Part shown: positions 5,509 to 55,528 of the stretch, piece by piece
Numbering within the stretch: position 1 is the stretch's first letter
Layout: the number at the start of each line of letters is the position of its first letter
Assembly: GCF_035621355.1 (NCBI RefSeq)
Contig: NZ_CP141769.1
Coordinates: forward strand, 2,604,001-2,668,000
Direction: 5' to 3'
Length of the DNA stretch: 64,000 bases
Source of the DNA: Thiobacillus sp. SCUT-2
GTDB taxonomy: Bacteria > Pseudomonadota > Gammaproteobacteria > Burkholderiales > Thiobacillaceae
Translations under genes and position numbers: made by a program
Notes under the pieces: model-generated
Database searches by the model: none
Told to the model about the DNA's origin: nothing
What the model saw: only the letters and a program-made list of their open reading frames with translations

Positions 5509-5562
5509 GACGGGCTCCAGAATGCGAATGGTGCTAGCTTAAACGAGGAAGGCGCCGGCCGC

Positions 5563-6291: not shown

Positions 6292-6304
6292 TTTCGAGCG
6301 CCTC

Positions 6305-9031
6305 GTGAACGAATCTAATGTAAGCCAGCCCGGCAGGGTGCTGCTGCTGGTGGACGGCTCGTCCTATCTGTATCGCGCCTTTCACGCGCTCCCCGACCTG
6401 CGCAACTCGGCGGGCGAGCCGACCAGTGCGATCAAGGGCGTACTCTCGATGCTGCACCGGCTGCGCAAGGACTACGCGGCGGATTATATCGCCTGCGTGT
6501 TCGACGCGAAGGGCAAGACCTTCCGCGACGAACTCTATCCTGCGTACAAGGAACACCGGCCGCCGATGCCGGACGATCTCGCCCGCCAGATCGAGCCCCT
6601 GCATGCGGCGATCCGTGCCGAAGGCTGGCCGCTCGTCATCGTCGACGGCGTCGAGGCGGACGACGTCATCGGTACGCTGGTGCGCCATGCGACCCGGCGC
6701 AATGTGCGCAGCATCGTGTCGACCGGCGACAAGGACATGGCGCAGCTGGTGGACGGCCACGTCACGCTGGTCAACACGATGAGCCAGGAGATCCTCGACG
6801 CGGCCGGCGTCGCCGCCAAGTTCGGGGTGCCACCCGAGCGCATCGTCGACTACCTCACGCTGGTCGGCGATGCCGTCGACAACGTCCCCGGCGTCGCCAA
6901 GTGCGGCCCGAAGACCGCCGCCAAATGGCTTGCCGAATATGGTTCGCTCGACACCCTGATGGCACGTGCCAGCGAGATAAAGGGCGTGGTCGGCGACAAC
7001 CTGCGCGCCGCGCGGGACTGGCTGCCTCAGGCACGCGTGCTGGTCACCATCAAGACCGACGTCGACCTGCCCTTCGATTTCGACGACCTCGTGCTGAAGC
7101 CGCGCGACACCGATGCGCTGCGCAGCCTGTTCGAGCGCTACGAATTCCGCACCTGGCTGCGCGAGCTCGATGCCGCCGGCAGCCCGGCGCCGGACGCCCC
7201 GGAAGAGGATGCGAGCGGCGCGCATCGCCATCGCTACGAGACGATCCTCAGCGAATCGCAGCTCGACGCCTGGATCGCCAAACTTCAGGCGGCGCCGGCA
7301 TTCGCGCTCGACACCGAGACCACCAGCCTCAACGCGATGCAGGCCGAACTGGTCGGCATCTCCTTCGCCACGTCCCACGGCGAGGCCGCCTACCTGCCGC
7401 TGGCCCACCATTACGCCGGCGCCCCGCAGCAGCTCGACCGCGATGCCGCGCTGGCGAAGCTGAAGCCGCTGCTGGAGGCGGGCGCGGCCCGGATCGTCGG
7501 CCAGCACCTGAAGTACGACCGGCATGTCTTCGCCAACTACGGCATCCGACTCGGCGGCGTCGTCGACGACACCCTGCTGCAGTCCTACGTGCTCGAGGCA
7601 CACCAGCCACACGAACTGGGCAACCTCGCATCCCGCCACCTCGGCCTCGCGACGATCAGCTACGACGACGTCACCGGCAAGGGTGCATCCCGCATCGGCT
7701 TCGAGCAGGTGGCGATCGAGCGCGCCAGCGAGTACGCGGCGGAAGATGCCGACGTCACGCTCAGGGTGCGCGATGCAATGGCGCCGCGCATAGACGCCTC
7801 GGACAAGCTGACCTTCGTCTACCGCGAGATCGAACTGCCGGTCGCGGACATCCTGTTCCGCATGGAGCGCGCCGGTGTGCTGCTCGACCGCACGCTGCTC
7901 GCCACGCAGAGCGGCGAGCTTGGCCGCAAGATGCTGGAGCTGGAACAGCGCGCCTACCAGGAGGCGGGACAGCCGTTCAACATGAGTTCGCCCAAGCAGA
8001 TCGGCGACATTCTCTTTACGCAAAAGGGACTGCCGGTCGTCAAGAAGACGCCCAGCGGCGCGCCGTCCACCGACGAGGAAACGCTGGAACAGCTCGCGCT
8101 CGACCATCCGATCGCGCGGGCGATCCTCGACTACCGGGGTCTCGCCAAGCTGAAGTCGACCTACACCGACAAGCTGCCGCAGATGGTCGACGCGCGCACC
8201 GGCCGCGTCCACACCAGCTATTCGCAGGCGACCGCGGTGACCGGCCGGCTGGCGAGCGCGGACCCCAACCTGCAGAACATTCCGGCGCGCACCGCCGAGG
8301 GGCGCCGCATCCGCGAGGCCTTCATCGCGCCGCCCGGGCACGTGCTGCTCTCCGCCGACTATTCGCAGATCGAGTTGCGGATCATGGCGCACCTGTCCGG
8401 CGACGCCGGCCTCCTGAAGGCCTTCGCCGAGGACCGCGACATCCACACGGCCACCGCCGCCGAGGTGTTCGGCGTCGGCCTCGACGCAGTCAGCGCCGAC
8501 CAGCGGCGCATGGCCAAGGTGATCAACTTCGGGCTGATCTACGGCATGTCGGCGTTCGGCCTGGCGAGCCAGCTCAACCTCGAGCGCGCCGCCGCGCAGG
8601 CCTACATCGACCGCTACTTCGCGCGCTACCCCGGTGTCGCCGACTACATGCAGCGCACCCGCGACGCGGCGCGCCGCCAGGGCTACGTCGAGACCGTGTT
8701 CGGCCGCCGCCTGTATCTGCCGGAGATCAACGCGAAAAACCCGGCGCGCCGCCAGGGAGCCGAGCGGGCGGCGATCAACGCACCCATGCAGGGCACGGCC
8801 GCGGATCTGATCAAGCTGGCGATGATCGCCGTGCAGCGCTGGCTCGACGAGGAAAAGCTGGGCAGCCGACTGCTGCTGCAGGTGCACGACGAACTGGTGC
8901 TGGAAGTGCCGGAGCACGAGCTCGACCGCGTGCGCGCAGAACTGCCGGCCCACATGTGCAACGTCGCCGAACTCAAGGTGCCGCTGCGTGTCGGCCTCGG
9001 GGCGGGCCGCAACTGGGAAGCGGCCCACTGA
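6305..9031 (+). CDS. polA: DNA polymerase I
   Basis: This is a 908-residue family A polymerase with all three domains. The 5' nuclease is VLLLVDGSSYLYRAFHAL near the N-terminus. The 3'-5' exonuclease keeps its acidic residues (DTETTSL, the D of QHLKYDRHVF, and YAAEDAD), so proofreading should be active. The polymerase carries DYSQIELRIMAHLSGD, RMAKVINFGLIYGMSAFGL and QVHDELVLEVP. It acts in Okazaki fragment maturation and repair. The GTG start gives a normal N-terminus. An ATG 38 bp upstream is in frame but would run into the divergent LOG gene. Confidence 0.93.
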   Translation: MNESNVSQPGRVLLLVDGSSYLYRAFHALPDLRNSAGEPTSAIKGVLSMLHRLRKDYAADYIACVFDAKGKTFRDELYPAYKEHRPPMPDDLARQIEPLHAAIRAEGWPLVIVDGVEADDVIGTLVRHATRRNVRSIVSTGDKDMAQLVDGHVTLVNTMSQEILDAAGVAAKFGVPPERIVDYLTLVGDAVDNVPGVAKCGPKTAAKWLAEYGSLDTLMARASEIKGVVGDNLRAARDWLPQARVLVTIKTDVDLPFDFDDLVLKPRDTDALRSLFERYEFRTWLRELDAAGSPAPDAPEEDASGAHRHRYETILSESQLDAWIAKLQAAPAFALDTETTSLNAMQAELVGISFATSHGEAAYLPLAHHYAGAPQQLDRDAALAKLKPLLEAGAARIVGQHLKYDRHVFANYGIRLGGVVDDTLLQSYVLEAHQPHELGNLASRHLGLATISYDDVTGKGASRIGFEQVAIERASEYAAEDADVTLRVRDAMAPRIDASDKLTFVYREIELPVADILFRMERAGVLLDRTLLATQSGELGRKMLELEQRAYQEAGQPFNMSSPKQIGDILFTQKGLPVVKKTPSGAPSTDEETLEQLALDHPIARAILDYRGLAKLKSTYTDKLPQMVDARTGRVHTSYSQATAVTGRLASADPNLQNIPARTAEGRRIREAFIAPPGHVLLSADYSQIELRIMAHLSGDAGLLKAFAEDRDIHTATAAEVFGVGLDAVSADQRRMAKVINFGLIYGMSAFGLASQLNLERAAAQAYIDRYFARYPGVADYMQRTRDAARRQGYVETVFGRRLYLPEINAKNPARRQGAERAAINAPMQGTAADLIKLAMIAVQRWLDEEKLGSRLLLQVHDELVLEVPEHELDRVRAELPAHMCNVAELKVPLRVGLGAGRNWEAAH

Positions 9032-9524: not shown

Positions 9525-9658
9525 GTTTCCTCCTTTTGCTTATGAATGAGGCGCTGCCCAATAAAATGGTAGACGCTACGCGAGCATGCCACCAGTGCCT
9601 CAAGTAATTTCTAGCCGGCTTGGTGGGGACCCGCGGCAAGGGTAAAATGCCCCCCCTT

Positions 9659-10711
9659 ATGCGCATCGGTCCCCACACCCTCAAGAACCGCCTCGTCGTC
9701 GCCCCCATGGCCGGGGTGACCGACCGGCCGTTCCGCCAGCTTTGCAAGAAGCTGGGCGCTGGCATGGCGGTATCGGAGATGGTGACGTCGAATTCGCTGC
9801 TGTACGGCTCGGCGAAGACGGCGCGGCGCGCCAACCACGAGGGCGAGGTCGACCCGATCAGCGTGCAGATCGCCGGTGCCGATCCGAAGATGATGGCAGA
9901 CGCCGCGCGCCACAACGTCGACCGCGGCGCGCAGATCATCGACATCAACATGGGCTGCCCGGCCAAGAAGGTCTGCAACGTGATGGCGGGCTCGGCGCTG
10001 CTGCAGGACGAGGCGCTGGTCGGCCGCATCCTCGACGCCGTGGTCAAGGCCGTCCCCGACGTGCCCGTCACGCTGAAGATCCGCACCGGCTGGGACCGCG
10101 AGCATCGCAACGCGCTCAGCATCCTGAAGATCGCCGAGAACGCCGGCGTGCAGGCGCTGGCGATGCACGGCCGCACCCGCGCCTGCGGCTATACCGGCGA
10201 GGCCGAGTACGACACCATCAAGGCCGTCAAGGCCGAGGCGAAGATCCCGGTAATCGCCAACGGCGACATCACGACTCCCGAAAAGGCGAAGTACGTGCTC
10301 GACTACACGGGCGCCGACGCCGTCATGATCGGGCGCGCCGCCCAGGGCCGCCCCTGGATCTTCCGCGAGATCGAACACTTTCTGAATACCGGCGCGCATC
10401 TCCCCCAGCCTGAGGTTGCCGAGATCCACGCCGTGCTGCTCGGGCACATCCACGACCTGTACGCGTTCTACGGCGACGTCACCGGCGTGCGCGTCGCGCG
10501 CAAGCACATTTCCTGGTACACGAAGGGACTGGTCGGCAGCAGCGCTTTCCGCCACACCATGAATCAATTCGACACCGTGGCGGAGCAGCTGGCCGTGGTG
10601 GACGAGTATTTTGCCCAGGCGGCACGCGCCGACAGCCGGCTGCGGTACGACGCCGGCGACGAAGACAAGAACACGCGAGATATGGCGCCCGTGTCCCGCC
10701 TCGCGGCATAA
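9659..10711 (+). CDS. dusB: tRNA-dihydrouridine synthase B
   Basis: This 350-residue FMN-dependent TIM-barrel enzyme reduces uridine 17 of tRNA. Family features are [26 protein letters not shown], the catalytic cysteine in [14 protein letters not shown], and [15 protein letters not shown]. The start MRIG matches characterised DusB; an in-frame ATG 12 bp upstream (MPPL) is less likely. It is the first gene of the classic dusB-fis operon, with fis following after 14 bp, so it probably shares growth-phase control with fis. Confidence 0.95.
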
Positions 10712-42948: not shown

Positions 42949-44910
42949 TTAGTCACCCATGCCCATGACGATGTAGCCGGTCGGGCAGACGTCCGCACAG
43001 ATGTGGCAGCCGATGCACTTGCCGTAGTCGGTGTCGACGTAACGACCCACGGTCGGGTTGTCCTTCTTCTTCACCTTGAACACCGCGGTCTGCGGGCAGT
43101 AGACGACGCAGTTGTCGCACTCGAAGCACTGGCCGCAGGACATGCAGCGCTTGGCCTCTTCCACGACCTGCTTCTCGGACAGCGCGTGCAGGCGTTCTTC
43201 GAAGTTGCCCAGGGCCTGTTCCTTGTCGAGCACGGTCACGTCACGGATGTGGCGCGCAACGTTGGGGAAATGGCCGAGGAACAGCTCGTTGTGCGGGATG
43301 ATGTGACGCTGCGACCGATCTTCGAAGTTGTGCAGGATGTCCTTGCGCGCAGAAGTACCCCAGTCCTGGCCATGCACTTCGTTGTACTCGTGGCCGGATT
43401 CGAGCCACTTGCGGATCTCGTCGAAGTGGTGCACGTCGACCTTCGGACGCTTGTCGAGCTCCTTGCCGGCGAGGAAGGCGTCGATGCCGTCGACGGCGAT
43501 CGAGGCGTGGCCGATCGCGGTAGTCAGCAGGTGCGGACGGATCACGTCGCCGCCGACGAAGACCTTGTCGTTGCCGGGGAAACGGTAGTTCTTGTCGGCC
43601 TTGATCAGGCCGTTGTTGTTGTTGAACTGTTCGAGGCCCGTGAAATCGACGCCCTGGCCGATCGCGGAAACGATCAGGTCGGCCGGCAGGTCACGCTCGG
43701 TGCCTTCGACAATCTTGGTTTCCTTGCCTTCCATCACGAAGTCCGCCACGCGCAGGGCGGTGGCACGGCCGTTGGCGTCAACGACCACCGCCACCGGGGT
43801 CACGCCGCCGATGATCTCGATGCCTTCCTGCTGCGCATGCTCGACTTCATGCTTGTTGGCGGCCATCTTGTCGACGGTGGCGCGGGAAACCAGCACCACG
43901 TCGGCGCCTTCGCGGGCGGAAATGGCGGCAACGTCGGACGCCATGTGCCCGGAGATCACGGCTTCCGGACGATCGTCATGGCTGCCGGACTTGGTCACAT
44001 TGCCGAGACGGCGAGCAACGGTCGCGACGTCGATCGAGGTATCGCCGCCGCCGATGACGACGACGCGGTTGCCGACGTGCTGCAGGCGGCCCTCGTTGAA
44101 GGCACGCAGGAAGGCGACGGCGGTCACGCAGTTGGGCGCCTCGGCGCCGGGAACCGGGAGCGGACGGCCAGCCTGGGCACCCATGGCCATGAAGATGGCA
44201 TCGTAGTTCTTGTCCAGTTCGTCGAAGCTGATGTCGCTGCCGACGCGGGTCTTGAGACGGGTCTCGACGCCCATGGCGATGATGCGGTTGATTTCGGCGT
44301 CGAGCATTTCGCGCGGGGTGCGGAAACCCGGGATGCCGTAGCGCATCATGCCGCCAAGCTCCTCGTGCTCGTCGAAGATGGTGACGGCGTGGCCGCGCAG
44401 GCGCAGCTGGTAGGCGGCGGCCAGGCCCGCCGGGCCGGCGCCGATGACGGCGACCTTCTTGCCGGTTTCGGTCGCGGCGGAGGTGAACGCCATGTTGTTG
44501 GCAATGCCCCAGTCGCCGATGAAGTGCTCGACGGAGTTGATGCCGACGTGGTCTTCGACCATGTTGCGGTTACAGCCGGATTCGCACGGCGCCGGGCAGA
44601 CACGGCCCATCACGCCCGGGAAGGGGTTGGCTTCGGTGAGGCGGCGGAAGGCGTACTCCTGCCAGGTCACGCCTGCAGGCGGCTTCTCGATGCCGCGCGC
44701 GATGTTCAGATAGCCGCGAATGTCTTCACCCGCCGGGCACGAGCCCTGGCAGGGAGGCGTGGAGAGCATGTACTCGGGACACTTGTGGGTCCAGCTCGAC
44801 TGGAAGATGCGATCCTGCGAAGAACGATAGTTCTTGTCGGACTCGCCATCCTTGAAGCGACGCCATGTCATGCCTTCGGTCTTTGCTGCTTTGTTCGTCG
44901 TGACAGCCAT
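42949..44910 (-). CDS. dsrL: DsrL, NAD(P)H:DsrAB oxidoreductase
   Basis: This 653-residue iron-sulfur flavoprotein belongs to the GltD/NfnB family. The N-terminal cluster region has CPEYMLSTPPCQGSCPAGEDIR. The FAD site is VAVIGAGPAGLAAAYQLR. A second dinucleotide fold follows (RVVVIGGGDTSIDVA). The C-terminal ferredoxin part has CMSCGQCFECDNCVVYCPQTA and CIGCHICADVCPTG. DsrL takes electrons from DsrAB during sulfur oxidation and reduces NAD(P)+, and it is essential in A. vinosum. It is a marker of oxidative dsr systems. Confidence 0.95.
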   Translation of the reverse strand: MAVTTNKAAKTEGMTWRRFKDGESDKNYRSSQDRIFQSSWTHKCPEYMLSTPPCQGSCPAGEDIRGYLNIARGIEKPPAGVTWQEYAFRRLTEANPFPGVMGRVCPAPCESGCNRNMVEDHVGINSVEHFIGDWGIANNMAFTSAATETGKKVAVIGAGPAGLAAAYQLRLRGHAVTIFDEHEELGGMMRYGIPGFRTPREMLDAEINRIIAMGVETRLKTRVGSDISFDELDKNYDAIFMAMGAQAGRPLPVPGAEAPNCVTAVAFLRAFNEGRLQHVGNRVVVIGGGDTSIDVATVARRLGNVTKSGSHDDRPEAVISGHMASDVAAISAREGADVVLVSRATVDKMAANKHEVEHAQQEGIEIIGGVTPVAVVVDANGRATALRVADFVMEGKETKIVEGTERDLPADLIVSAIGQGVDFTGLEQFNNNNGLIKADKNYRFPGNDKVFVGGDVIRPHLLTTAIGHASIAVDGIDAFLAGKELDKRPKVDVHHFDEIRKWLESGHEYNEVHGQDWGTSARKDILHNFEDRSQRHIIPHNELFLGHFPNVARHIRDVTVLDKEQALGNFEERLHALSEKQVVEEAKRCMSCGQCFECDNCVVYCPQTAVFKVKKKDNPTVGRYVDTDYGKCIGCHICADVCPTGYIVMGMGD

Positions 44911-44960
44911 GTTGGTTCTCCTAACGCCTACACAAAATGAATGTTTGTTGAATATTTGGA

Positions 44961-46484
44961 TCAGTCGAGCTTGACCGCCCGGCCGACCAGCTGATGCACA
45001 CCGCCCACCATGCTCATGTCGAAGCCGTACTTGGGCAAGACCTTGGTGAATTGCGCCTTGCAGATGGCGCAGATCAGGGCCAGGAAGTTGACCTGGTGTT
45101 CCTTGACCACGTTGTTGAGTGCGGTCGCGCGGGGCAGCGCACCCTTGACCCGCACCTCCATGAGATCGTCCGTCAGCAGGCCGCCGCCACCGCCGCAGCA
45201 GAACGTGGCCTCACGGATCGTGCCGTCCGCCATGTCGTGGTAGTTGTTCACGACCGCCTTGATCAACTCGCGCGGAATTTCGAACTGGCCGCCCGGCTCC
45301 GTGCCCATGCGCGAAGCGCGGGCGACGTTGCACGAGTCGTGGTAGGTCACGACGAACTCGTCGTTGACCGACGGGTCGACCTGGATCTTGCCCTGCTTGA
45401 TCAGGTCGTTGGTCAGTTCGCAAATGTGCTGGGGCTGCGGGTAGCTCGGGTCGAGCTGTTTCTGCAGTTCGATCGAGAACGGGTCATCGCCGCCGTAGCC
45501 GATACCGGTCAGCGTGTTCCAGAAGCTGTAGGCGACGCGCCAGGCATGGCCGCACTCGCCCACCACGATGCGCTTGGCGCCCAGTTCCAGAGCCGCGTCG
45601 CGGATGCGCATGGCGACATTGCGCATCGTCTCGTAATTGCCGTTGAAGAGGCCAAAGTTGCCGGCTTCCGACGCGTAGGACGACAGCGTCCAGCTGATGC
45701 CCGCGGCATGGAAGACCTTGGCATAGCCGATCAGCGACTCGACGTGCGGCTCCGAGAAGAAGTCGGCGGAGGGCGTGATCAGCAGCACTTCGGCACCTTT
45801 CACGTCCATCGGCAGCTTGACCGGCACGCCGGTGTCGGCTTCGATGTCCTCCTCGAGGCCGGCGAGCGTGTCTTCCAGCGCCGGTCCCGGCAGGCCGAGG
45901 TTGTTGCCGATCTTTTGCACCTTGCCGAGAATCTCGTTGGAGTACTTCTGCCCGATGCCGACGTGGTTGAGGATCTCGCGACCGGCCATCGTGATCTCGG
46001 CGGTGTCGATGCCGTATGGGCAGAAGACCGAGCAGCGACGGCATTCGGAACACTGGTGGTAATAGCTGTACCACTCGTCGAGGATGTCCTTGGTCAGGTC
46101 CTTTGCGCCGACGAGTTTGGGGAACAGCTTGCCGGCGGGGGTGAAGTAGCGACGGTAAACCTGGCGCATCAGGTCCTGCCGCGCGACCGGCATGTTCTTG
46201 GGGTCGGACGTGCCGAGGTAGTAGTGGCACTTGTCGGTACAGGCGCCGCAATGCACGCAGGCGTCGAGAAAGACCTTGAGCGAGCGGTACTTGCCCAGCA
46301 GGTCGCCCATCTTCTCGATGGCACGCTCCTTCCAGTCTTCGACGAGCTCGTGCGGATAACCCATGAAGTCCTGCACCGCCTTCGGCGCGGGGAACGTCTT
46401 GACGTGCGCCATCACGCCTTCCCGCAGCTTGGGAACCTCGATGTCGTCCTTCAGTTCTGGAATATCAAAATCTGCAGCAGCCAC
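44961..46484 (-). CDS. dsrK: DsrK, HdrD-like catalytic subunit
   Basis: This 507-residue protein resembles the heterodisulfide reductase HdrD. It has two 4Fe-4S motifs (CVHCGACTDKCHYYLG and CSECRRCSVFCPYGID). A C-terminal CCG-type segment (FCCGGGGGLLTDD) probably holds the non-cubane cluster. In DsrMKJOP it acts on the DsrC trisulfide or disulfide. The start is a GTG eight bases after AGAGGA. The ORF stays open further upstream, but that overlaps the dsrM tail without a ribosome site. Confidence 0.93.
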   Translation of the reverse strand: MAAADFDIPELKDDIEVPKLREGVMAHVKTFPAPKAVQDFMGYPHELVEDWKERAIEKMGDLLGKYRSLKVFLDACVHCGACTDKCHYYLGTSDPKNMPVARQDLMRQVYRRYFTPAGKLFPKLVGAKDLTKDILDEWYSYYHQCSECRRCSVFCPYGIDTAEITMAGREILNHVGIGQKYSNEILGKVQKIGNNLGLPGPALEDTLAGLEEDIEADTGVPVKLPMDVKGAEVLLITPSADFFSEPHVESLIGYAKVFHAAGISWTLSSYASEAGNFGLFNGNYETMRNVAMRIRDAALELGAKRIVVGECGHAWRVAYSFWNTLTGIGYGGDDPFSIELQKQLDPSYPQPQHICELTNDLIKQGKIQVDPSVNDEFVVTYHDSCNVARASRMGTEPGGQFEIPRELIKAVVNNYHDMADGTIREATFCCGGGGGLLTDDLMEVRVKGALPRATALNNVVKEHQVNFLALICAICKAQFTKVLPKYGFDMSMVGGVHQLVGRAVKLD

Positions 46485-46533
46485 TTGAAAGTCCTCTGTC
46501 CGTACGTATGTGTCCGTCGTCGCTACCGACGGA

Positions 46534-47268
46534 TCAGTTGTTCCGTTCCAGGCGCGCCGCCCAGGCCGCGACGTGGCGATGCTCACGCGGGTTGTCGACC
46601 TGGTTGCGGGTCGGGCTGAAGAACACGCCCGGAGCATGCAACAGCTTGCTGATCGGGAAAATGACCATCAGCGTCGCGACCAGCGCCAGGTGCACCAGCA
46701 GGGGAGGATCCTGGGGGAGCGGCTGGATGTCGAAATACATCAGGCCCATGAAAAATTCTTTCAGCGAGATGATGTCGGTATGGGCGACGAAGGTCATCAC
46801 CATGCCCGACGCGCCGATGGCGAGAAGCAGGACCAGGATGAGGTAGTCGGAGGGCGTCGAGATGTAGCGCACGCGGTCGACAAGGAAGCGCCGCGCCAGA
46901 AGGCCCGCGAGGCCGATCACCATCATGATGCTCGCGTACTTGCCGAACGGCTGGACGATATCGACCCAGAACCAGACGGGTTGGGTGAAATAGCGGAGAT
47001 GACGTGCGAGGACTAGGAACAGGCCGAAGTGGAACAGCCAGCCGAAGACCCAGATCCACTTGTTCGACTTGAAGAGCGACTCGAAGACCACGACCTCCTT
47101 GGCCATGCGGTAGACGACGCCCGGCTTCGTGGTCGGGGCGGGAGTCGTCGGGATGAGCAGCGGAGCGGGCGTCCGGCTGTAATCAAAAATCTTGTAGATC
47201 AAGCCCACCACCAGCAGCACGGTGGCGATGTAGAACAGCCCGGCGTAAATCATCGTCACAGTAGACAA
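46534..47268 (-). CDS. dsrM: DsrM, NarI-like cytochrome b subunit
   Basis: The product is 244 residues with five membrane helices, such as MIYAGLFYIATVLLVVGLIYKIF, IWVFGWLFHFGLFLVLARHL and LVHLALVATLMVIFPISKLLHAPG. Helix-located histidines are the likely haem b ligands. DsrM anchors DsrK and exchanges electrons with quinones. A TTG start with GGAGA about 8 bases upstream is the best start. GTG four codons later and ATG six codons later are alternatives. It follows dsrC after a 175-bp structured gap. Confidence 0.9.
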   Translation of the reverse strand: MSTVTMIYAGLFYIATVLLVVGLIYKIFDYSRTPAPLLIPTTPAPTTKPGVVYRMAKEVVVFESLFKSNKWIWVFGWLFHFGLFLVLARHLRYFTQPVWFWVDIVQPFGKYASIMMVIGLAGLLARRFLVDRVRYISTPSDYLILVLLLAIGASGMVMTFVAHTDIISLKEFFMGLMYFDIQPLPQDPPLLVHLALVATLMVIFPISKLLHAPGVFFSPTRNQVDNPREHRHVAAWAARLERNN

Positions 47269-47283
47269 ATTCCATCTCCCATT

Positions 47284-47392
47284 GGGTCCGGACCCGTTTC
47301 ACGCGAGCGCGTGGACGAATCGTTTTCCGCAGCACGTTGTGTTTACGAATCGAACGCGGTCCGAAATCTGGACGCATTCGATCGGGAAACAC
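47284..47392 (-). promoter_or_regulatory. Structured dsrC-dsrM intergenic region with a long stem-loop
   Basis: In the minus-strand RNA, GGACGCATTCGAT (47370-47382) pairs with ATCGAACGCGGTCC (47349-47362) with one bulge and one wobble. This is extended outward by GTGTTT/AAACAC, giving a hairpin of about 54 nt downstream of dsrC. A perfect 12-bp palindrome GGGTCCGGACCC and CACGCG-AG-CGCGTG lie further towards dsrM. It probably stabilises or partly terminates the dsrC message, and promoter elements for dsrM are possible. Confidence 0.6.
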
Positions 47393-47443
47393 GACCGGGA
47401 CGGACTCGCGCCGCGATGCGGGGCGAGCCGCCGGTCTTGCAGC

Positions 47444-47779
47444 TTAGATACAGCCAGTCGGCTTGGGCAGGCCGGCGATCTTACAGGCCTGCTTGGCGGG
47501 GCCGTAGGGGAACAACTCGTACAGGTACTTGTTGTTGCCCTTCTCGGGGCCGAGCTTCTTGCCGATCGCCTTGGTCAGAACGCGGACAGCGGGGGCGATC
47601 TGGTATTCGGCGTAGTACTCGCGCAGGAAGTTGACGACTTCCCAGTGCGCTTCGGTCAGGTCAACCTTTTCTTCGACGGCCATGTACTTGGCAATGTCTT
47701 CGTTCCACTGCGACAGATCGACCAGATAGCCTTCCTCGTCGACTTCGACTTCCTTACCGGCGATGTTCACCATAGGCAT
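47444..47779 (-). CDS. dsrC: DsrC, sulfur-carrier protein
   Basis: This 111-residue DsrC/TusE family protein has both redox cysteines in its C-terminal arm, Cys99 and Cys110 (KQACKIAGLPKPTGCI). It receives sulfur from the DsrEFH/TusA relay, presents it to DsrAB as a persulfide, and its trisulfide or disulfide is processed by DsrMKJOP. The ribosome site AAAGGAG is strong, which fits its known high abundance. It lies between dsrH and a hairpin-rich gap. A cysteine-free paralogue is encoded at about 52.9 kb. Confidence 0.96.
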   Translation of the reverse strand: MPMVNIAGKEVEVDEEGYLVDLSQWNEDIAKYMAVEEKVDLTEAHWEVVNFLREYYAEYQIAPAVRVLTKAIGKKLGPEKGNNKYLYELFPYGPAKQACKIAGLPKPTGCI

Positions 47780-47801
47780 AGCAATACTCCTTTGTTAAAA
47801 G

Positions 47802-48101
47802 TTACAGCCAAGACTGACAGTTGCTGTGTTCTGCGACCAGATCCACAAAACCGCCGTAATCCACGACATTGACACCGTCCAGCACGCGCCCGGCCATGCC
47901 ACGCGCCGCCAGATCGGGACCGAGTGCGTAAATCTTGAGGTCAGCTTGTGCTGCCTGGATTTTCGCCGCCACCGGATTGCCCTTGGTCGCAGCGTAGACC
48001 GCGTCCTCGATCAGCAAAACGGCGGAACCTTTGGTGGCCAACTTCAGGCAGCTGTCCAGCGAGCTGCGCTCAGAGGCCGATTTGTTCACGATATGCAGCA
48101 T
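47802..48101 (-). CDS. dsrH: DsrH, DsrEFH sulfur-relay subunit
   Basis: This 99-residue TusB-like protein reads MLHIVNKSASERSSLDSCLKLATKGSAVLLIEDAVYAATKG. Cys18 is in the position of the conserved cysteine. DsrEFH forms a heterohexamer that passes sulfur from TusA to DsrC. The last residues, NCQSWL, resemble other DsrH tails. It is flanked closely by dsrF and dsrC, with its own GGGGA ribosome site. The presence of DsrEFH marks the oxidative direction. Confidence 0.93.
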   Translation of the reverse strand: MLHIVNKSASERSSLDSCLKLATKGSAVLLIEDAVYAATKGNPVAAKIQAAQADLKIYALGPDLAARGMAGRVLDGVNVVDYGGFVDLVAEHSNCQSWL

Positions 48102-48111
48102 GTGTATCCCC

Positions 48112-48507
48112 TTAGAAGCTGATCACGACGTCTTGCTCGGCCATGAGATTCTTCATCTCGTCGTCCGATAGAACGGTCACGTCGACAATCAGGTCATCCT
48201 CGGTCAGGCCGCGCGCGTCCATCGAGGAACGGTCGACATAGAGTTTCTCGATGTCGTAGCCTTCCAGCGCACGGTAGGTCTTGGAAAAGTCCTTGACCTC
48301 GACACCCTTGGTGTCGATGCCCTTCATCAGCTGGTACACGCCGTCGTCGGTGAACACCAGGCTCACGTCCTGATCGAAAGCAGCGGTAATCAACACCACC
48401 TCCAGGCCTTCCAGCGCGTACACGGTACCGTGCGGCGCCTTGCGGTTCAGGAACATGAATTTCTTGACGATGCCGGAGCCGTCGTCTTCCATATCCATAT
48501 CGCTCAT
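48112..48507 (-). CDS. dsrF: DsrF, DsrEFH sulfur-relay subunit
   Basis: This 131-residue TusC-like protein has KKFMFLNRKAPHGTVYALEGLEVVLITAAFDQDVSLVFTDDGVYQLMKG, the DsrF signature. No cysteine is needed for sulfur transfer in this subunit, and none is obvious here. The start MSDMDMEDDG has GAGGA upstream. A start five codons earlier overlaps the dsrE stop and is possible. It acts as the structural middle member of DsrEFH. Confidence 0.93.
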   Translation of the reverse strand: MSDMDMEDDGSGIVKKFMFLNRKAPHGTVYALEGLEVVLITAAFDQDVSLVFTDDGVYQLMKGIDTKGVEVKDFSKTYRALEGYDIEKLYVDRSSMDARGLTEDDLIVDVTVLSDDEMKNLMAEQDVVISF

Positions 48508-48518
48508 CTCGTTATTCC

Positions 48519-48878
48519 TCAATCACCGAACGTCACGAGACGATCGTACTGAATACCCATTTCCACCAACTGACCCAGACCGGAAATGCGGAATCCCGGG
48601 GCCAGCAGTTCGTCCTTGATGCCGCGACGGAGCGCGGCGGCCACGCACACGACGAGATCGATGCCGTGATCTTCGGCCAGCTTGGACCAGCGCGCGGTGA
48701 CGTTGCGGTCATCCTGCGGCGGCTCGGCCATGCGCGTCGAGTTGTTCACGCCGTCATGGTAGAAAAAGACACGGGGAATCTTGTGACCCTTCTCGATCGC
48801 CGTGCGGGCGAAGAGATAAGCGGAGTCACTGGCCTGATGGTTGTAAGGCCCCTCGTTAATCAGAATGCCGAATTGCAT
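48519..48878 (-). CDS. dsrE: DsrE, sulfur-binding subunit of DsrEFH
   Basis: The product is 119 residues of the TusD type. The essential sulfur-binding cysteine is Cys78 in DLVVCVAAALRRG, at the same position as in A. vinosum DsrE. The N-terminus MQFGILINEGPYNHQASDSAYLFARTAIEKGH is typical. Cys78 accepts persulfide sulfur from TusA and passes it towards DsrC. It follows dsrB after a 92-bp gap containing a strong hairpin. Confidence 0.95.
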   Translation of the reverse strand: MQFGILINEGPYNHQASDSAYLFARTAIEKGHKIPRVFFYHDGVNNSTRMAEPPQDDRNVTARWSKLAEDHGIDLVVCVAAALRRGIKDELLAPGFRISGLGQLVEMGIQYDRLVTFGD

Positions 48879-48921
48879 GGCTACTCAAACTCCGAAAAAT
48901 CCAGTCATTGTTATCAAGCGA

Positions 48922-48948
48922 CCGCCGCAGCCTGGTCGGCCGCGGCGG
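48922..48948 (-). promoter_or_regulatory. Stem-loop between dsrB and dsrE
   Basis: A perfect 7-bp GC stem (CCGCCGC / GCGGCGG) with a 13-nt loop lies in the 92-bp gap in the dsr message. No U-run follows, so it is more likely an RNA-processing or stability element than a terminator. It would allow separate control of dsrAB and dsrEFHC levels. Confidence 0.5.
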
Positions 48949-48970
48949 CGCTGACTACTCCCCGAACCGC

Positions 48971-50041
48971 TCAGAAGCGGATGTGCGCGGAGGCGTTCAG
49001 GTTGTAACGGCCACCACGCCAGTTATCGATGTGATACTTGGTGAAGGGCAGACCGGTCTTCTCGAAGAACGCGGGCCAACCGATACGGTCGATCCAGTCG
49101 ATCATGCGCTCCCAAGGCTTGCCGTCTTCCTTGTAGGTCGCGAGGATCTTCTTGACCACTTCGGCAACTTCCGGCCAGCGCGGCGCCCTGTTCGGCAGTC
49201 CGTTCGCAACCAGCTTGTGGAAGGTCGGCTTGGAACGGGCGTTCGAGTTCTTGCCGCCCACCCAGATCGCGATCTTGGAGTGCTCGGGATCGTTGATCTG
49301 CATCGGCGGGCAGGGAGGATAGCAGGCGCCGCAGCAGATACATTTCTTCTCGTCCACTTCCAGCGAGGGCTTGCCGTTCACCAGGGCGGGACGGATCGCA
49401 GCCACCGGGCAGCGCGCCACGACGGAAGGACGCTCACACACGTTGGCCACCAGATCGTGGTTGATCTTGGGCGGCTTGGTGTGCTGGACGATGATGGCGA
49501 TGTCCGCCTGGCCGCCGCAGTTGATCTCGCAGCACGAGGTCGACAGCTTGACGCGGTTAGGCATCTCGCACTTGACAAAGTCGTCGTACAGCTCGTCCAT
49601 CAGCGCCTTCACCACGCCGGAGGCATCGGTACCAGGGATGTCGCAATGCAGGAAGCCCTGGGTGTGCGCAATCATGGACACCGAGTTCGCGGTGCCACCG
49701 ATGGGGTAGCCCTTCTCGCTCAGCGCCTTGATCAGCGGCTCGACCTTGGAACCGTCGGCCACCATGTATTCGATGTTGGAACGCGCAGTGAAACGCACGT
49801 AACCGTCAGCGTATTGGTCGGCGATGTCAGCCAGCTCGCGGATGGTGTAATGGTCCATCTGGCGTGCCGTGCCGGCCTTGACGGTCCAGATTTCGTCGCC
49901 GGACTCGGCGCGGTGGTACAGGACACCCGGCTTCGGGTGGCTGTGGAAAGCCCACTTGCCGTAGTTCTTCACCATCACGGGGTGCATGTAGGGCATCGGA
50001 TCCGGTGCGCCGGACTCGATAGGCGGACGTAGTTCTGCCAT
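48971..50041 (-). CDS. dsrB: Dissimilatory sulfite reductase beta subunit (oxidative type)
   Basis: The 356-residue subunit forms the alpha2beta2 enzyme with DsrA. It has the nitrite/sulfite reductase domains and a ferredoxin insert with CICCGACYPPCPPMQINDPEHSKI. The CCEINCGGQADI region contributes to the sirohaem-[4Fe-4S] site. In sulfur oxidisers it converts DsrC-bound persulfide to sulfite. It starts with ATG after GGAGA, 65 bp downstream of dsrA. Confidence 0.96.
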   Translation of the reverse strand: MAELRPPIESGAPDPMPYMHPVMVKNYGKWAFHSHPKPGVLYHRAESGDEIWTVKAGTARQMDHYTIRELADIADQYADGYVRFTARSNIEYMVADGSKVEPLIKALSEKGYPIGGTANSVSMIAHTQGFLHCDIPGTDASGVVKALMDELYDDFVKCEMPNRVKLSTSCCEINCGGQADIAIIVQHTKPPKINHDLVANVCERPSVVARCPVAAIRPALVNGKPSLEVDEKKCICCGACYPPCPPMQINDPEHSKIAIWVGGKNSNARSKPTFHKLVANGLPNRAPRWPEVAEVVKKILATYKEDGKPWERMIDWIDRIGWPAFFEKTGLPFTKYHIDNWRGGRYNLNASAHIRF

Positions 50042-50106: not shown

Positions 50107-51411
50107 TTAAGCGGCGGACGACTGCTTGTACTCGTTCCACTTCTCGACCTGCTCGTCCCAGTCGTCGGAACGGAAGTAGGGGTTGGAACGCGGCGCATTG
50201 ATCATGTTGGGATCGACCGGGAGATCCATGCCTTCGAGGAAGTTGGCCAGACCGATGCGGTCGATCATCTCGCCGGTGCGCTCGTGCTCCAGCGCGTTCT
50301 CGGCGAAGAAGTCGATGATGTTGCGCGACAGCTCGTTCAGCCGTTCGAAATCCTCGTCCGACTCGAGCTTCATGAACGGGATCACGACCGTACCCATGGT
50401 GGCGCCGATCTTCAGCACGCCCTTGCCGCCGACCAGGATGGTCACACCCTTGTCGAGGCCAACACGCAGGCCGCCGGGGATGACGTTCAGGCAATGCATG
50501 CAACGGACGCAGTTCTTGTTGTCGATGCACATCGTGTTGCCGTCGCCCAGGTTGGCGGCAGAAATCTTATCACCACCCTTGAATTCGGCGCTGGCAACCA
50601 GGGTGATCGCCTTGGTCGGGCACTTGCTGATCACGTCGTTGACCAGACCCTTCATGCCGTGGTCCTTGTAGTAGGCCTGGACCTGCGCCTCATCGACACG
50701 GATGTTGTCGCGCCAGGTGCCGATGGTAGCCATGTCGGAGCGCTGGATGGCGTTGACGCAGTCGTTCGGGCAGCCGGAGAACTTGAACTTGAACTTGTAG
50801 GGCAGCGACGGACGGTGCATGTCGTCGATGTTGTTGTTGATGACGGTGCGCAGCGCCTTGGCTTCGTCGAAGCAGGAATGCTCGCAGCGCGCAGCGCCGA
50901 CGCAGGACATCGACGTACGCAGCGCGGGGCCTGCACCACCCAGGTCAAAGCCCATTTCGTTCAGCTCGTCGAACGCCTTCTGGACGTTTTCGGTCTTGAC
51001 GCCCTGGAACATGATGTCGCCGGACTGGCCATGGAACGCAATCAGGCCCGAACCGCCGGTGGCAGTCCAGACGTCGCACATCTTGCGCAGCAGGTCGGAC
51101 GTGTAGTGCATGCCGGCGGGCGGCTGGATGCGGAGGGTGTGGAATTCGGCAGCCTCGGGGAACAGCGGCTGATGATTTTCGTCCTTCAGTTCGGTGAAAC
51201 GGGGAATCACGCCACCACCGTAACCGAACACGCCGACCGTACCGCCCTTCCAGTAACCCTTCATGTCCTTGTAGGACGTTTCCAGCTGACCCATCAGGTC
51301 AACCATCATGTCGTTCTCCTTGGCCAGGCGCTTCAGACCCGTCACGAAGCTAGGCCACGGACCGCTCTCGAGCTCGTCCAGATTGGGCGTATCAATCATC
51401 TTCTTTGCCAT
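50107..51411 (-). CDS. dsrA: Dissimilatory sulfite reductase alpha subunit (oxidative type)
   Basis: The product is 434 residues. The cluster ligands coupling [4Fe-4S] to sirohaem are Cys170, Cys176, Cys214 and Cys218 (SCVGAARCEHSC and GCPNDC). A ferredoxin domain has CIDNKNCVRCMHCLNVIPGG. The start MAKKMIDTPNLDEL is fixed by an AGGAGAG ribosome site. It is the first gene of the dsr operon. The set of linked genes (dsrEFH, dsrL, dsrN) indicates the reverse, sulfur-oxidising direction. Confidence 0.96.
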   Translation of the reverse strand: MAKKMIDTPNLDELESGPWPSFVTGLKRLAKENDMMVDLMGQLETSYKDMKGYWKGGTVGVFGYGGGVIPRFTELKDENHQPLFPEAAEFHTLRIQPPAGMHYTSDLLRKMCDVWTATGGSGLIAFHGQSGDIMFQGVKTENVQKAFDELNEMGFDLGGAGPALRTSMSCVGAARCEHSCFDEAKALRTVINNNIDDMHRPSLPYKFKFKFSGCPNDCVNAIQRSDMATIGTWRDNIRVDEAQVQAYYKDHGMKGLVNDVISKCPTKAITLVASAEFKGGDKISAANLGDGNTMCIDNKNCVRCMHCLNVIPGGLRVGLDKGVTILVGGKGVLKIGATMGTVVIPFMKLESDEDFERLNELSRNIIDFFAENALEHERTGEMIDRIGLANFLEGMDLPVDPNMINAPRSNPYFRSDDWDEQVEKWNEYKQSSAA

Positions 51412-51793
51412 AGTTTTCTCTCCTAGAACATTTCGAAATGCCCGCTCAGCCGATAGCTCAACGGTATTCGACCATCGTATTCGGTTGATGACGGCCGGGC
51501 CATCATTCTCATGGGTAAAACGGCTAGCCCATCCCGGTAGGTTCCAACCTACCCATATGGAGTAGGTCGTTTTCCCCAACGCGGTAATGCCTCAACCAGG
51601 CAAAGGGTGAGAAATTACGGGCCCGCGACAGGAATAGATAAGCGTATTAAAATATTGTTGCGAACGCAAGCCCATGTTTTTAGCATGGTTGAAATGCGGC
51701 GCGACGCCCCAATTCGATCACCACCTGGCTCACGCACGGGCCGGGAATGTTTATATACCTTTAAGACGCCGCTTCGATCAGGTTCAAGACTCC
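51412..51793. promoter_or_regulatory. Divergent control region of the dsr operon and accessory cluster
   Basis: This 382-bp gap is AT-richer than its surroundings and must hold the dsrA promoter and probably that of the plus-strand cluster. It contains the palindrome described separately and a small TGCCT/AGGCA hairpin (51588-51602). A TATTAAAAT-like element (51645 region) could be a -10 site. No convincing coding sequence is present; an open frame starting near 51607 has no family character. Confidence 0.65.
51536..51567. promoter_or_regulatory. Palindromic operator candidate upstream of dsrA
   Basis: GGTAGGTT-CC-AACCTACC is followed at once by CATATG and another GTAGGT half-site, so ACCTAC and GTAGGT pair twice in overlapping symmetry. 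It lies about 125-155 bp upstream of the dsrA start codon. The spacing suits a dimeric helix-turn-helix regulator, but the regulator is not identified. Confidence 0.55.
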
Positions 51794-52015
51794 ATGCCCG
51801 AGATTACCCTCCTAGACAAGATGCGCCTGCCCTTCGGCGGTCAGGAAGTCGAATTCCAGCACCTGACCCACGAAGCAGGCGGCGTTCCGTTCCTGCGCAT
51901 CCGCATCCGCGAGAACAAGCGCTTCACGATCTTCGACGTCGACCCGGCCAGCGCGCAGCAATGGGCCGAGCTGATGGCGGCGTGGGCCCGCGAGCACGCC
52001 GGAGACAAGCCATGA
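51794..52015 (+). CDS. Small conserved-looking protein (73 aa), first gene of accessory cluster
   Basis: The product MPEITLLDKMRLPFGGQEVE... is compact, soluble and free of cysteines. The central RIRENKRFTIFDVDPASAQQWAELMAAWAREH part suggests an alpha/beta fold. I do not recognise a characterised family; it may be a domain of unknown function conserved in sulfur oxidisers. Its stop overlaps the next start (ATGA), so it is translationally coupled to the Cas6-like protein and could be its partner. Confidence 0.7.
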   Translation: MPEITLLDKMRLPFGGQEVEFQHLTHEAGGVPFLRIRIRENKRFTIFDVDPASAQQWAELMAAWAREHAGDKP

Positions 52016-52668
52016 CCTGGAGCTTCCCCGAGCACAAGCCCGAGGAATACACGCCGCGCATGGTGGACCTGCAGTTCGATCTGGTGGGCACCACGATCCC
52101 CGCGGAAAACGCCCAGCTGCTGGCCGACGCCCTGCTCGGTCTGCTCCCCTGGCTGGGCGAGGATCCCGGCACGGGCATTCAGCATCTCAAGGGTGCCGAG
52201 ACGAACCAGGGCGACGCCGCGCTCAACATCAACCGGCGGACCAAGCTTTTCATCCGGACGCCGAAGACTCGCGTCGCGGACATGCAGCAGGTCGTCGGCA
52301 AGACGCTCCAGCTCGGCGGGCACACGCTGACGCTCGGCGGCTTCAAGACCCGGGAATTCAGTCCGTTCGCCAATATCTACGCCCACTTCGTTGACACTGG
52401 CAGCGCCACTGAAGAACAATTCGTACAGGATGTGATGCGCGAACTGGATGGACGCTTCCAGTTGCGCTGCGGCTTCATCTGCGGCAAGCGGCAAAGCCTG
52501 CAAAGCGCATCCGGCCCCCTTTACGGCTATAGCCTGATGCTGCACGACGTGCCTCGGCACAAGTCGCTGCAATTGCAGGACGAAGGCATCGGGCGAAACC
52601 GTATGCTCGGTTGCGGGATATTCATTCCGCACAAATCCATCGCGCCGGTCGTACCGGACATTTTTTAA
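52012..52668 (+). CDS. Cas6/Cmx6-like RNA endonuclease family protein, no CRISPR nearby
   Basis: The product is 218 residues. The layout resembles type I-MYXAN Cas6/Cmx6: MVDLQFDLVGTTIPAENAQLLADALLGLLPWL, GIQHLKG, TKLFIRTPK, GKTLQLGGHTLTLGG, and a C-terminal glycine-rich loop GIGRNRMLGCG (residues 192-202) of the GhGx5GhG form. Cas6 proteins bind and cut stem-loop RNA, typically with a catalytic His; His58 is a candidate. No array or other cas gene is seen, and the gene is divergent from the dsr operon and precedes an RspA-like gene. Assignment is by motif and layout, not by a database search. Confidence 0.7.
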   Translation: MTWSFPEHKPEEYTPRMVDLQFDLVGTTIPAENAQLLADALLGLLPWLGEDPGTGIQHLKGAETNQGDAALNINRRTKLFIRTPKTRVADMQQVVGKTLQLGGHTLTLGGFKTREFSPFANIYAHFVDTGSATEEQFVQDVMRELDGRFQLRCGFICGKRQSLQSASGPLYGYSLMLHDVPRHKSLQLQDEGIGRNRMLGCGIFIPHKSIAPVVPDIF

Positions 52669-52719: not shown

Positions 52720-53052
52720 ATGTCCTATGTTGTGAACGGCCAAGAACTGGAAAGCGGTGAAGAGGACTTCCTGCTGGAAGCCAACTTCAGCGACGAGGTT
52801 CCGCCCGTCATCGCCGCCAACGAGAAGATCACGCTGACCGACGAGCACTGGCTGGTCATCCACTGGCTGCGCGAGAAGTACAAGGAAGACGGTCAGACCC
52901 CGAACTTCCGCAACATGGTGTCGATGCTCGAGGACGACCATCCCGGCACCGACTGGAAGAAGAAGCTGTACGACCTCTTCCCCAACCAGCCGGCCCGCCA
53001 AGGCCCGCGCATCGCCGGCCTGACCAAGCCCTACGGCAAGGGCGGTTACTGA
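52720..53052 (+). CDS. Cysteine-free DsrC/TusE paralogue (RspA type)
   Basis: The product is 110 residues. It aligns with DsrC through LTDEHWLVIHWLREKYKEDGQTPNFRNMV and WKKKLYDLFPNQPARQGPRIAGLTKPYGKGGY. Both DsrC cysteines are gone (Cys99 position is Pro, the last Cys is Gly) and the protein has no cysteine at all. Such homologues have been termed RspA and are thought to be regulatory rather than sulfur carriers. It has a strong AAAGGAG site and sits between the Cas6-like and sulfurtransferase genes. Confidence 0.88.
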   Translation: MSYVVNGQELESGEEDFLLEANFSDEVPPVIAANEKITLTDEHWLVIHWLREKYKEDGQTPNFRNMVSMLEDDHPGTDWKKKLYDLFPNQPARQGPRIAGLTKPYGKGGY

Positions 53053-53152: not shown

Positions 53153-54001
53153 ATGTTCTCCAATACCCTCGTAACCACTGAAGACCTGGCCGCGCACCTC
53201 GACGACCCCAACTGGGTGGTCCTCGATTGCCGCTTCACCCTCACCGACACCGGGGCGGGTCGTCAGGCCTACGAGAAGGCTCACGTCCCGGGTGCACGCT
53301 ACGTGCATCTGGACAACGACCTGTCGGCGCCGGTCGGAGACAAGACCGGTCGCCATCCGCTGCCCGACCCGCAGGTGCTGAACGAGAAGCTCTGCCAGTG
53401 GGGCGTCGGCGTCAACAAGCAGGTCGTCGTCTACGACGACAGCTTCGGCTCGATGGCCGTACGCCTCTGGTGGCTGATGCGCTGGCTCGGCCATCCCGGC
53501 GTGGCGCTGCTCGACGGTGGCTATCCCAAGTGGACGCGCGAGAAGCGTCCGGTGACGGCCGAAACCCCGACCGTCCACAAGGCCGCCTGCGCCTGCCTGC
53601 CGGAACCCAGCCAGGTCGTCACCGCGGAAGAAATCCTGCGCGCCTCGCAGACCGGCGAGCAGTTGATTCTCGACGCCCGCCCCGACCGCCGTTTCAGCGG
53701 CGAATTCGAGCCGCTCGACCCGGTCGCGGGCCACGTGCCCGGCGCGATCAACCGCCCGTTCGAGGACAACCTCGACCTCGACGGCACCTTCCAGCCGCCC
53801 GAGGCGCTGCGCGAGGAGTACCAGGCCCTGCTGCAGGGCCGCGCGCCCTGGCAGGTCCTGCACATGTGCGGCTCGGGCGTCACCGCCTGCCACAACGTGC
53901 TGGCGATGGAAATCGCCGGTCTTCCCGGTTCCCGCCTCTATCCCGGTTCGTGGAGCGAGTGGATCACCGATCCGTCGCACCCCGTCGCTACAGGAGAATA
54001 A
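53153..54001 (+). CDS. Two-domain rhodanese-type sulfurtransferase
   Basis: This 282-residue protein has an inactive-type N-terminal rhodanese domain and a C-terminal domain with active Cys239 in the loop CGSGVTAC. This loop is typical of the 3-mercaptopyruvate sulfurtransferase branch rather than of classical thiosulfate rhodanese. It carries sulfane sulfur as a persulfide. There is no signal peptide. Lying 100 bp after the RspA-like gene and near dsr, it may feed or drain the cytoplasmic sulfur relay. Confidence 0.9.
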   Translation: MFSNTLVTTEDLAAHLDDPNWVVLDCRFTLTDTGAGRQAYEKAHVPGARYVHLDNDLSAPVGDKTGRHPLPDPQVLNEKLCQWGVGVNKQVVVYDDSFGSMAVRLWWLMRWLGHPGVALLDGGYPKWTREKRPVTAETPTVHKAACACLPEPSQVVTAEEILRASQTGEQLILDARPDRRFSGEFEPLDPVAGHVPGAINRPFEDNLDLDGTFQPPEALREEYQALLQGRAPWQVLHMCGSGVTACHNVLAMEIAGLPGSRLYPGSWSEWITDPSHPVATGE

Positions 54002-54628: not shown

Positions 54629-55528
54629 TTGACGGCGTCCCCCTTCGATCTCGCCAACGAATCGGGCTACCGCGCCTGGCGCGACGCCCGGCTAGCTGCC
54701 TATCCGCGCAGCGCCGATGAACTCGTCGTGCCGCTCGCCGATCCGCGCCAGCTGACCGCGGCCGAGTTCGCCGCGCTCGAAGACCGCTGCGCCCGCGCCA
54801 ACATGGCGATCTACAGCGCACCGCACCTGCCGGCCGCGGACAAGTCGATCCCCAAGGAGCTCGGGCGCCAGCTCGGCCTCGTACGCCTCGAAGGCAATTA
54901 CCTCGCCGACGAGGACGGCCTGTCGTCGATCACCCCGGCCGACGATGCCGGCAGCGGCGTGCGCGGCGATTTCATCCCCTACACCCACAAGCCGATCAAC
55001 TGGCATACCGACGGCTACTACAACGCGCTCGACCGCCGCATCCTCGGCATGACGCTGCACTGTGCGCAGGACGCCGAATCCGGCGGCGAGAACGACCTGC
55101 TGGATCACGAGATCGCCTACATCCAGCTGCGCGACGTCAACCCCGACTATGTCGCGGCATTGATGGAGCCTGATGCGATGACGATTCCGGCACGCATGGA
55201 CGAGGACAACGTCGCGCGCCCCGAACAGTCCGGCCCGGTATTCGCGGTCGACCCGGCCGAGGGCTTCCTCGTCATGCGCTACACCGCGCGCACGCGCTCG
55301 ATCGTCTGGAAAGCCGACGCCGTCACCCAGGCGGCAGTCAAGACGCTCGCCGACATCCTGGCGAGCTCCGAATACCTCCTGACCGCGCGGCTCGCGCCCG
55401 GCATGGGCCTCGTCTGCAACAACGTCCTGCACACCCGCAGCGGATTCACCGATTCCCCCGGCCACCGCCGCCTGCTCTATCGCGGGCGCTACTACGACCG
55501 CCTCCGCTTTCCCGCACGCGCAGCTTAG
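54629..55528 (+). CDS. TauD/TfdA-family Fe(II)/2-oxoglutarate-dependent dioxygenase-like protein
   Basis: The 299-residue protein has the iron-binding HxD in NWHTDGYY (His126, Asp128). The distal ligand is the His in NNVLHTRSGF, followed by HRRLLYRGRYYDRLRFP. Family members oxidise taurine, alkylsulfates or other compounds. The TTG start has only a weak ribosome site, and no better start was seen. The substrate is unknown; the neighbourhood suggests an organosulfur compound or a modified small molecule. Confidence 0.82.
   Translation: MTASPFDLANESGYRAWRDARLAAYPRSADELVVPLADPRQLTAAEFAALEDRCARANMAIYSAPHLPAADKSIPKELGRQLGLVRLEGNYLADEDGLSSITPADDAGSGVRGDFIPYTHKPINWHTDGYYNALDRRILGMTLHCAQDAESGGENDLLDHEIAYIQLRDVNPDYVAALMEPDAMTIPARMDEDNVARPEQSGPVFAVDPAEGFLVMRYTARTRSIVWKADAVTQAAVKTLADILASSEYLLTARLAPGMGLVCNNVLHTRSGFTDSPGHRRLLYRGRYYDRLRFPARAA

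Follow-up and report, generated by a model that had tools for sequence, protein, structure and literature searches.

What is a gene for Cas6, a protein whose family is known for cutting RNA in the immunity based on clustered regularly interspaced short palindromic repeats (CRISPR), doing beside a sulfur-oxidation operon? The question is raised by a 64,000-nucleotide stretch of Thiobacillus sp. SCUT-2 (the window, meaning the whole of the DNA that was analysed), in which the dsr operon, from dsrA to dsrL on the minus strand, is directly divergent from a short module that contains cas6. The dsr genes belong to the reverse dissimilatory sulfite reductase (rDsr) pathway. As judged from sequence comparison, the protein is very probably a dsr-dedicated Cas6 that stands outside CRISPR. 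In what follows, G and L numbers denote individual genomes and loci.

Identity of the protein and its CRISPR context

The window protein exceeds the curated cut-offs of both Pfam PF09559 (194.5 bits against 26.7) and NCBIfam TIGR02807, cas6_cmx6 (220.8 bits against 98.85), and profiles and a structural model alike give it a Cas6 (RAMP) fold; the Cas6/Cmx6-like identity assigned in a preliminary description of the locus is thus borne out. The glycine-rich loop GIGRNRMLGCG described there occupies residues 192–202 of the 218, and the ATGA that couples a 73-codon open reading frame (ORF) to the 218-codon ORF is found at 52012-52015. Among plasmids, the window protein matched two cyanobacterial Cas6s, and searched against phages it gave no match. 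TIGR02807, an equivalog profile, also labels as CRISPR Cas6/Cmx6 all three dsr-type proteins tested (those of the window, L113, and L133), with a margin of less than 2 bits for L113.

A scan for at least three 18-mers spaced 45–90 bases apart, with the genome's own array as positive control, turned up nothing resembling a CRISPR repeat across the 64 kb of the window, in line with the preliminary description. No cas3, cas8/cmx8, cas7, or cas5 gene was found beside cas6, whose neighbours are dsr genes and genes for DUF6967, DsrC-like, rhodanese, and TauD proteins. The genome (3.01 Mb, one contig) contains a single PF09559 match and a single Cas1, the latter outside the window within a type II CRISPR locus (G000:C1:2281136-2286380; L042); there, a type II Cas1 (259.7 bits) has Cas9 (732.7 bits) on one side and Cas2 (78.6 bits) on the other, and the array has a 66-base period. 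Type II systems use RNase III and trans-activating CRISPR RNA (tracrRNA), not Cas6. A profile search found no RAMPs-family gene in the genome, and its Cas3 matches were all sub-threshold, the best scoring 30.9 bits against a cut-off of 102.45. Elsewhere in the genome, one CRISPR array was found, that of the Cas9 locus; outside the window, arrays lacking cas genes were not scanned for.

Co-occurrence and adjacency with dsr

In the host's family, Cas6 is present in 90 of 100 genomes (57 of the 59 graded good), and Cas1 in 56 (35 of the 59). The association was then counted in a sample of 370 genomes, each at least 90% complete, from the whole class, which we take, from named relatives and general taxonomy, to be the Gammaproteobacteria in the GTDB sense; our 'gamma' and 'beta' labels have the same basis. 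DsrA was called present at E < 1e-50, read by hand. Among the matches listed, DsrA was present in 125 genomes, Cas6 in 128, both in 122, and neither in 239; Cas6 therefore accompanies 122 of the 125 dsrA genomes vs 6 of the 245 others (Fisher p 5e-86, a test that ignores shared ancestry).

Distance was counted for 129 of the 130 listed Cas6 rows, the second fragment in G333 being set aside. Ninety-one rows lie near dsrA, three share its contig but are far away, 29 are on a different contig, and six come from genomes without dsrA. The 91, from 123 rows of dsrA genomes, are 662–4511 bases from dsrA (median 1696), and every one is divergent. When sorted by hand, 19 of the 29 other-contig rows proved truly apart, with room on the contig and no dsrA (18 by distance or locus opening, plus one f96 genome), and 10 could not be resolved. 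Among the 113 resolvable cases, cas6 thus adjoins dsrA in 91, and where it does not, the two genes still occur together.

A motif scan of GTDB genomes confirmed at least 577 stretches, of which the best 80 were retained. Their titles include many Thiobacillus, Hydrogenophilales, Sulfuricella, Sulfurimicrobium, and Gallionellaceae, together with unspecific names and one Rhizobium. Among these best 80, named betaproteobacterial loci, dsrA is divergent in 78 at a median of 597 bases, and the other two are contigs that start inside the module. In a 319-genome sample of the phylum, Cas6 occurred in five genomes, with dsrA adjacent in each.

The exceptions in the class sample were opened individually. 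Five of the six Cas6 genomes without DsrA (G158, G179, G209, G362, G378) have the module's small ORF, tauD, or the gene for a KGGY-ending DsrC-like protein beside cas6; in four, the cas6 locus is at a contig end, and G362 has a different gene order. The sixth, G454, is a true type I-MYXAN CRISPR locus in which cas3 and cmx8 adjoin cas6 and an array is present. The three DsrA genomes without Cas6 have a contig end that cuts dsrA (G193, G284) or the module (G205). Opening 20 unlinked or unresolved Cas6 loci revealed a module gene (small ORF, KGGY gene, or tauD) beside cas6 in 16, the queries finding none beside it in G129, G137, G258, and G183; the best-matching query was a dsr-type Cas6 in all 20. 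In G336, dsrE to dsrL adjoin cas6 without dsrAB. In f96 (L234, L235, L236), cas6 is not beside dsrA and is divergent from ORFs read as rnc and era, with the KGGY gene some 7–8 kb away.

Cas6 has probably been adopted for an ordinary function of the cell, because it is found outside CRISPR clusters, is near-universal in the dsr genomes of the class, and usually adjoins dsr.

Conserved residues, phylogeny, and selection

Residue counts and the tree were made with the 20 opened unlinked or unresolved loci set aside. The RNA-binding signature of the family is conserved. In the glycine-rich loop, G194 and G202 are present in 148 of 148 dsr-linked sequences, and G192 and G200 in 147 each. Outside the loop, R76 and R82 are invariant (148/148), E134 occurs in 147, and K208 in 146; at position 134, all eight outgroup rows have proline. 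In a tree rooted with seven CRISPR-linked Cas6s of cyanobacterial plasmids, 82 dsr-type Cas6s fall on one side of a branch with 100/95 support, and the G454 protein and a Gloeobacter sequence with an ambiguous genomic setting on the other.

Within Thiobacillus, the ratio of nonsynonymous to synonymous substitution rates (dN/dS) is 0.156 for cas6 (33 pairs, dS defined for 32), 0.103 for the DUF6967 gene, and 0.200 for the KGGY gene; dsr-linked cas6 is shown by this codon-level comparison to be under purifying selection. Six genomes of only 1.0–1.1 Mb contain dsrA, cas6, and the KGGY gene and have no Cas1. Since gene clusters can travel together, cas6 might be a hitch-hiking relic retained by chance beside dsr; its dN/dS, its retention in these small genomes, and its retention away from dsrA leave that explanation with next to no probability.

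The module and its partners

Coordinates are collected in Table 1. The gene names from dsrB to dsrL follow the known dsr gene order; dsrC of this operon matches PF04358 at E 1.3e-48. A second dsrA copy elsewhere in the genome (G000:C1:1416478-1417731; L297) is 85% identical to the first, and the 20 kb fetched around it contain no further dsr gene and no leader element.

Table 1. Features of the cas6–dsr locus, in window coordinates
Feature	Position	Strand	Basis and remarks
dsrB, E, F, H, C, M, K, L	42949..50041	-	ORFs; relatives show the same order (window proteins as queries)
dsrA, divergent from the cas6 module	50107..51411	-	TIGR02064 match, genome C1:2654128-2655381
83-base palindromic element, dsrA leader	51500..51582	-	Ends 88 bases before the dsrA start
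DUF6967 protein, 73 aa	51794..52015 (including stop)	+	PF22295, E 4.4e-30; ATGA overlap with cas6
cas6, dsr-linked subfamily, 218 aa	52012..52668	+	Gly-rich loop 192-202, PHK 206-208
DsrC-like paralogue, cysteine-free, C-terminus GKGGY	52720..53052	+	PF04358, E 1.8e-27; alignment
Rhodanese-domain protein	53153..54001	+	PF00581, E 1.2e-27; also at Thiobacillaceae loci
TauD-family dioxygenase	54629..55528	+	PF02668, E 3.6e-19

The make-up of the module was counted in 56 loci picked for the proximity of cas6 and dsrA, which, being chosen for linkage, cannot measure it. A DsrC paralogue ending in KGGY, usually cysteine-free, follows cas6 in 53 (not in L052, L053, or L055), and a small ORF precedes it in 54, sorted by pattern into DUF6967 (15), a 63-residue type (25), and a 108-residue type (14). 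In 36 of the 40 linked gamma loci, cas6 is separated from dsrA by a TauD-family gene.

The DUF6967 protein has 140 homologues at E ≤ 0.001, and its model (predicted local distance difference test score, pLDDT, 90.5) consists of four strands and one helix; a fold in common with PUR and PC4-like single-strand nucleic acid binders is no more than suggested. DUF6967 was seen without dsr nearby at L054, L056, L057, and L058 (four genomes, two other families), and so this small protein has other settings too. L244 and L245, DsrA loci from another class, have no cas6, yet tauD, the 63-residue ORF, and DUF6967 adjoin their dsrA; the ORF that follows in L244 is one we take to encode a siroheme synthase. 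Two DsrA genomes of another class that also lack cas6 (G643, G651) have the KGGY gene elsewhere (L280, L281). Because partner genes occur in cas6-free loci and genomes of another class, Cas6 looks as if it had been added, in this class specifically, to a set of genes that is older.

The KGGY protein is a member of the DsrC/TusE family of sulfur carriers but lacks the C-terminal cysteines of DsrC and ends in KGGY. RspA denotes a cysteine-less DsrC group; a literature search gave nothing relevant to it. Membership of the TusE/DsrC family would fit another role for the module, namely the delivery of sulfur to tRNA, or quality control of tRNA, via this partner instead of dsr regulation, and in G643, the KGGY gene adjoins an ORF that we take to be ttcA, for a tRNA thiolation enzyme. 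Such a role is nevertheless highly unlikely, given the missing cysteines and a co-occurrence that is with dsr.

Candidate RNA targets

A dsr-type Cas6 is likely to act on RNA, by analogy with its family. Intergenic segments of the loci were compared with 20 dinucleotide shuffles each; gaps of <40 or >220 bases were excluded. Folding energies with z below -2 were obtained for 33 of 45 dsrC-M gaps, 14 of 22 dsrB-E gaps, 26 of 54 dsrA-B gaps, and 7 of 48 dsrK-L gaps; dsrA leaders gave 8 of 56, and for coding controls the figures were 5 of 56 and 4 of 54. No sequence shared among the gap hairpins was seen by eye. Because of the 40-base limit, none of the six small cas6-keeping genomes contributed a dsrC-M or dsrB-E gap, and in three small-genome examples inspected (L113, L115, L128), the dsrC-M gap has no strong hairpin. 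The preliminary description had proposed a recruited, non-CRISPR role tied to dsr, with the dsr message and its hairpins after dsrB and dsrC as a possible substrate; the first part is strongly supported, but these hairpins, although they fold above chance, are rejected as the Cas6 site since they are absent or too short in the small cas6-keeping genomes.

Thirty-eight of 40 Thiobacillus leaders contain the 83-base palindromic element, which ends 86–89 bases short of dsrA. Pairing was assessed in 26 of the 29 equal-length sequences, three poorer matches (L179, L180, L181) being omitted: 81.8% of cells pair and seven of the 25 pairs change on both sides, and none of 500 shuffles reached the covariation score, although such controls overstate support for related sequences. 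G.T pairs number 43 vs 24 for A.C. The element may be an operator or an RNA hairpin. A related palindrome, TACYC-N4/5-GRGTA, is found in many beta dsrA leaders and is rare in the rest of the 1.3 Mb that these loci span. The N5 form was counted in Thiobacillus leaders (29 of 39), other beta leaders (6 of 38), and older Thiobacillaceae leaders, the window among them (2 of 13); the corresponding counts for the N4 form are 0, 13, and 9. Neither occurs in the 43 gamma dsrA leaders, where no counterpart of the element was found. The motif is likely to be a dsr operator, and for the leader element as a whole, the odds of an operator at the beta level are no worse than those of a Cas6 substrate, for which it is a candidate only.

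Observations that weigh against a dedicated role

Several observations count against a Cas6 dedicated to dsr and acting on a cellular RNA. The linkage is not strict, cas6 being apart from dsrA in 22 of the 113 resolvable cases, and Cas6 was found in none of 32 further genomes of other classes that exceed the DsrA cut-off. The tie between Cas6 and dsr is class-specific, and as these genomes do without it, Dsr chemistry in itself does not require Cas6.

Some module genomes also have CRISPR machinery: Cas1 is present in 10 of the 27 tested. In G426 (L307), a CRISPR array (approximately 5487-6530; repeats ending GAAATTGAAAC, with a period of about 65 bases) lies some 3 kb from a dsr-type cas6 (9525-10265) that is not beside dsrA, with no match to cas3 or cmx8 in the 20 kb of the locus. 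This array speaks against a clean separation in that one lineage, and because of it, some dsr-type members may still serve arrays. Other repeat hits at the opened loci were rejected as CRISPR: the repeat of L304 lies in coding sequence, and that of L311 consists of three 54-base copies. Together with the family name, the Cas1 genomes and the G426 array are what would commend, as the general role of the protein, processing in trans of CRISPR RNA from arrays at other sites in the genome; we give this very little credence, since 17 of the 27 module genomes have no Cas1, the only CRISPR system found in the host is type II in a genome without RAMPs or above-cut-off Cas3, and occurrence tracks dsrA, not Cas1.

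Catalysis is a further difficulty. The preliminary description singled out His58, which is indeed present but is conserved only in Thiobacillus (42/43); the family-wide histidine column is residue 57, which is Gln in the window protein. At this column, 39 of 43 Thiobacillus sequences have Gln and all four f96 sequences have Phe, and cutting may thus have been lost in some lineages. CRISPR-linked relatives vary there too (the eight outgroup rows are mostly non-His, those shown including three N and one each of Q, L, and A), so that the column may say nothing on catalysis. A protein that binds RNA without cutting, as a scaffold or as a translational regulator of dsr or another message, is an unlikely alternative; against it, the histidine is kept in 95 of the 148 dsr-linked sequences.

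Lastly, no RNA substrate of Cas6 was found. Rfam returned nothing credible for 42–56 kb of the window, and the hairpin seen in the window between cas6 and the KGGY gene is not conserved (z below -2 in two of 49 such gaps) and was rejected.

Proposed mechanism and significance

The explanation that we consider the best, and on balance probable as a whole, is that a Cas6 subfamily left CRISPR to become a standing companion of the rDsr sulfur-oxidation genes and acts on cellular RNA. Such a Cas6 would bind one specific, structured cellular RNA and probably cut it in most lineages; it would probably work together with the DsrC-like KGGY protein and with the small partner, which in the window is DUF6967, and the outcome would be dsr expression or assembly fitted to sulfur supply. 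That it controls dsr expression in particular is a step we regard as possible but slightly doubtful. A bolder version makes Cas6, a former CRISPR nuclease, an obligatory rDsr helper across the dsr bearers of the class: with a small partner that binds nucleic acid and with the cysteine-less DsrC as a sensor of sulfur load, it would form a dedicated ribonucleoprotein switch that cuts or holds one conserved RNA and so gates energy metabolism, and a CRISPR component would have been turned into a metabolic riboregulator; this seems rather unlikely.

Were the adopted-companion explanation true, it would be the clearest case known to us of a single Cas protein moved from immunity into core energy metabolism, and this across a clade, not just in a single species. 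The rDsr pathway, the driver of much biological sulfur oxidation, would gain components as yet unexplained. For genomes with a dsr module, databases use a name, 'type I-MYXAN CRISPR-associated protein Cas6/Cmx6', that may be misleading. A literature search (Cas6 with dsr or sulfur oxidation, Cmx6/I-MYXAN, lone cas6, exaptation) found no description of a dsr-tied Cas6.

Comparison with known systems

Exapted CRISPR modules, such as the myxobacterial dev operon, CRISPR-associated transposons (CAST), type IV systems, and HRAMP, employ Cas proteins in non-immunity roles (PMC8730458). The exaptation examples in section 6 of that article retain several Cas proteins, and none among them is a lone Cas6 tied to energy metabolism. 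The Cas6 of a type I-B CRISPR-associated transposon (PDB 8fcj chain B) is part of a Cascade complex, whereas no Cascade gene was found near dsr. The closest comparison is with type I-MYXAN Cas6/Cmx6 (TIGR02807, PF09559), as on cyanobacterial plasmids, which is of the same profile family and has the glycine-rich loop in common. Eight I-MYXAN-type plasmid regions were opened. Six combine cas3 with either cas8a1 or cmx8, one lacks cas3 but contains cas8a1 and cas5 next to a TniQ gene, and in one no neighbour is annotated as cas; the window has none of these cas genes. The dsr-linked Cas6s, for their part, form a branch separate from the I-MYXAN proteins, marked by E134 in place of the outgroup's P134.
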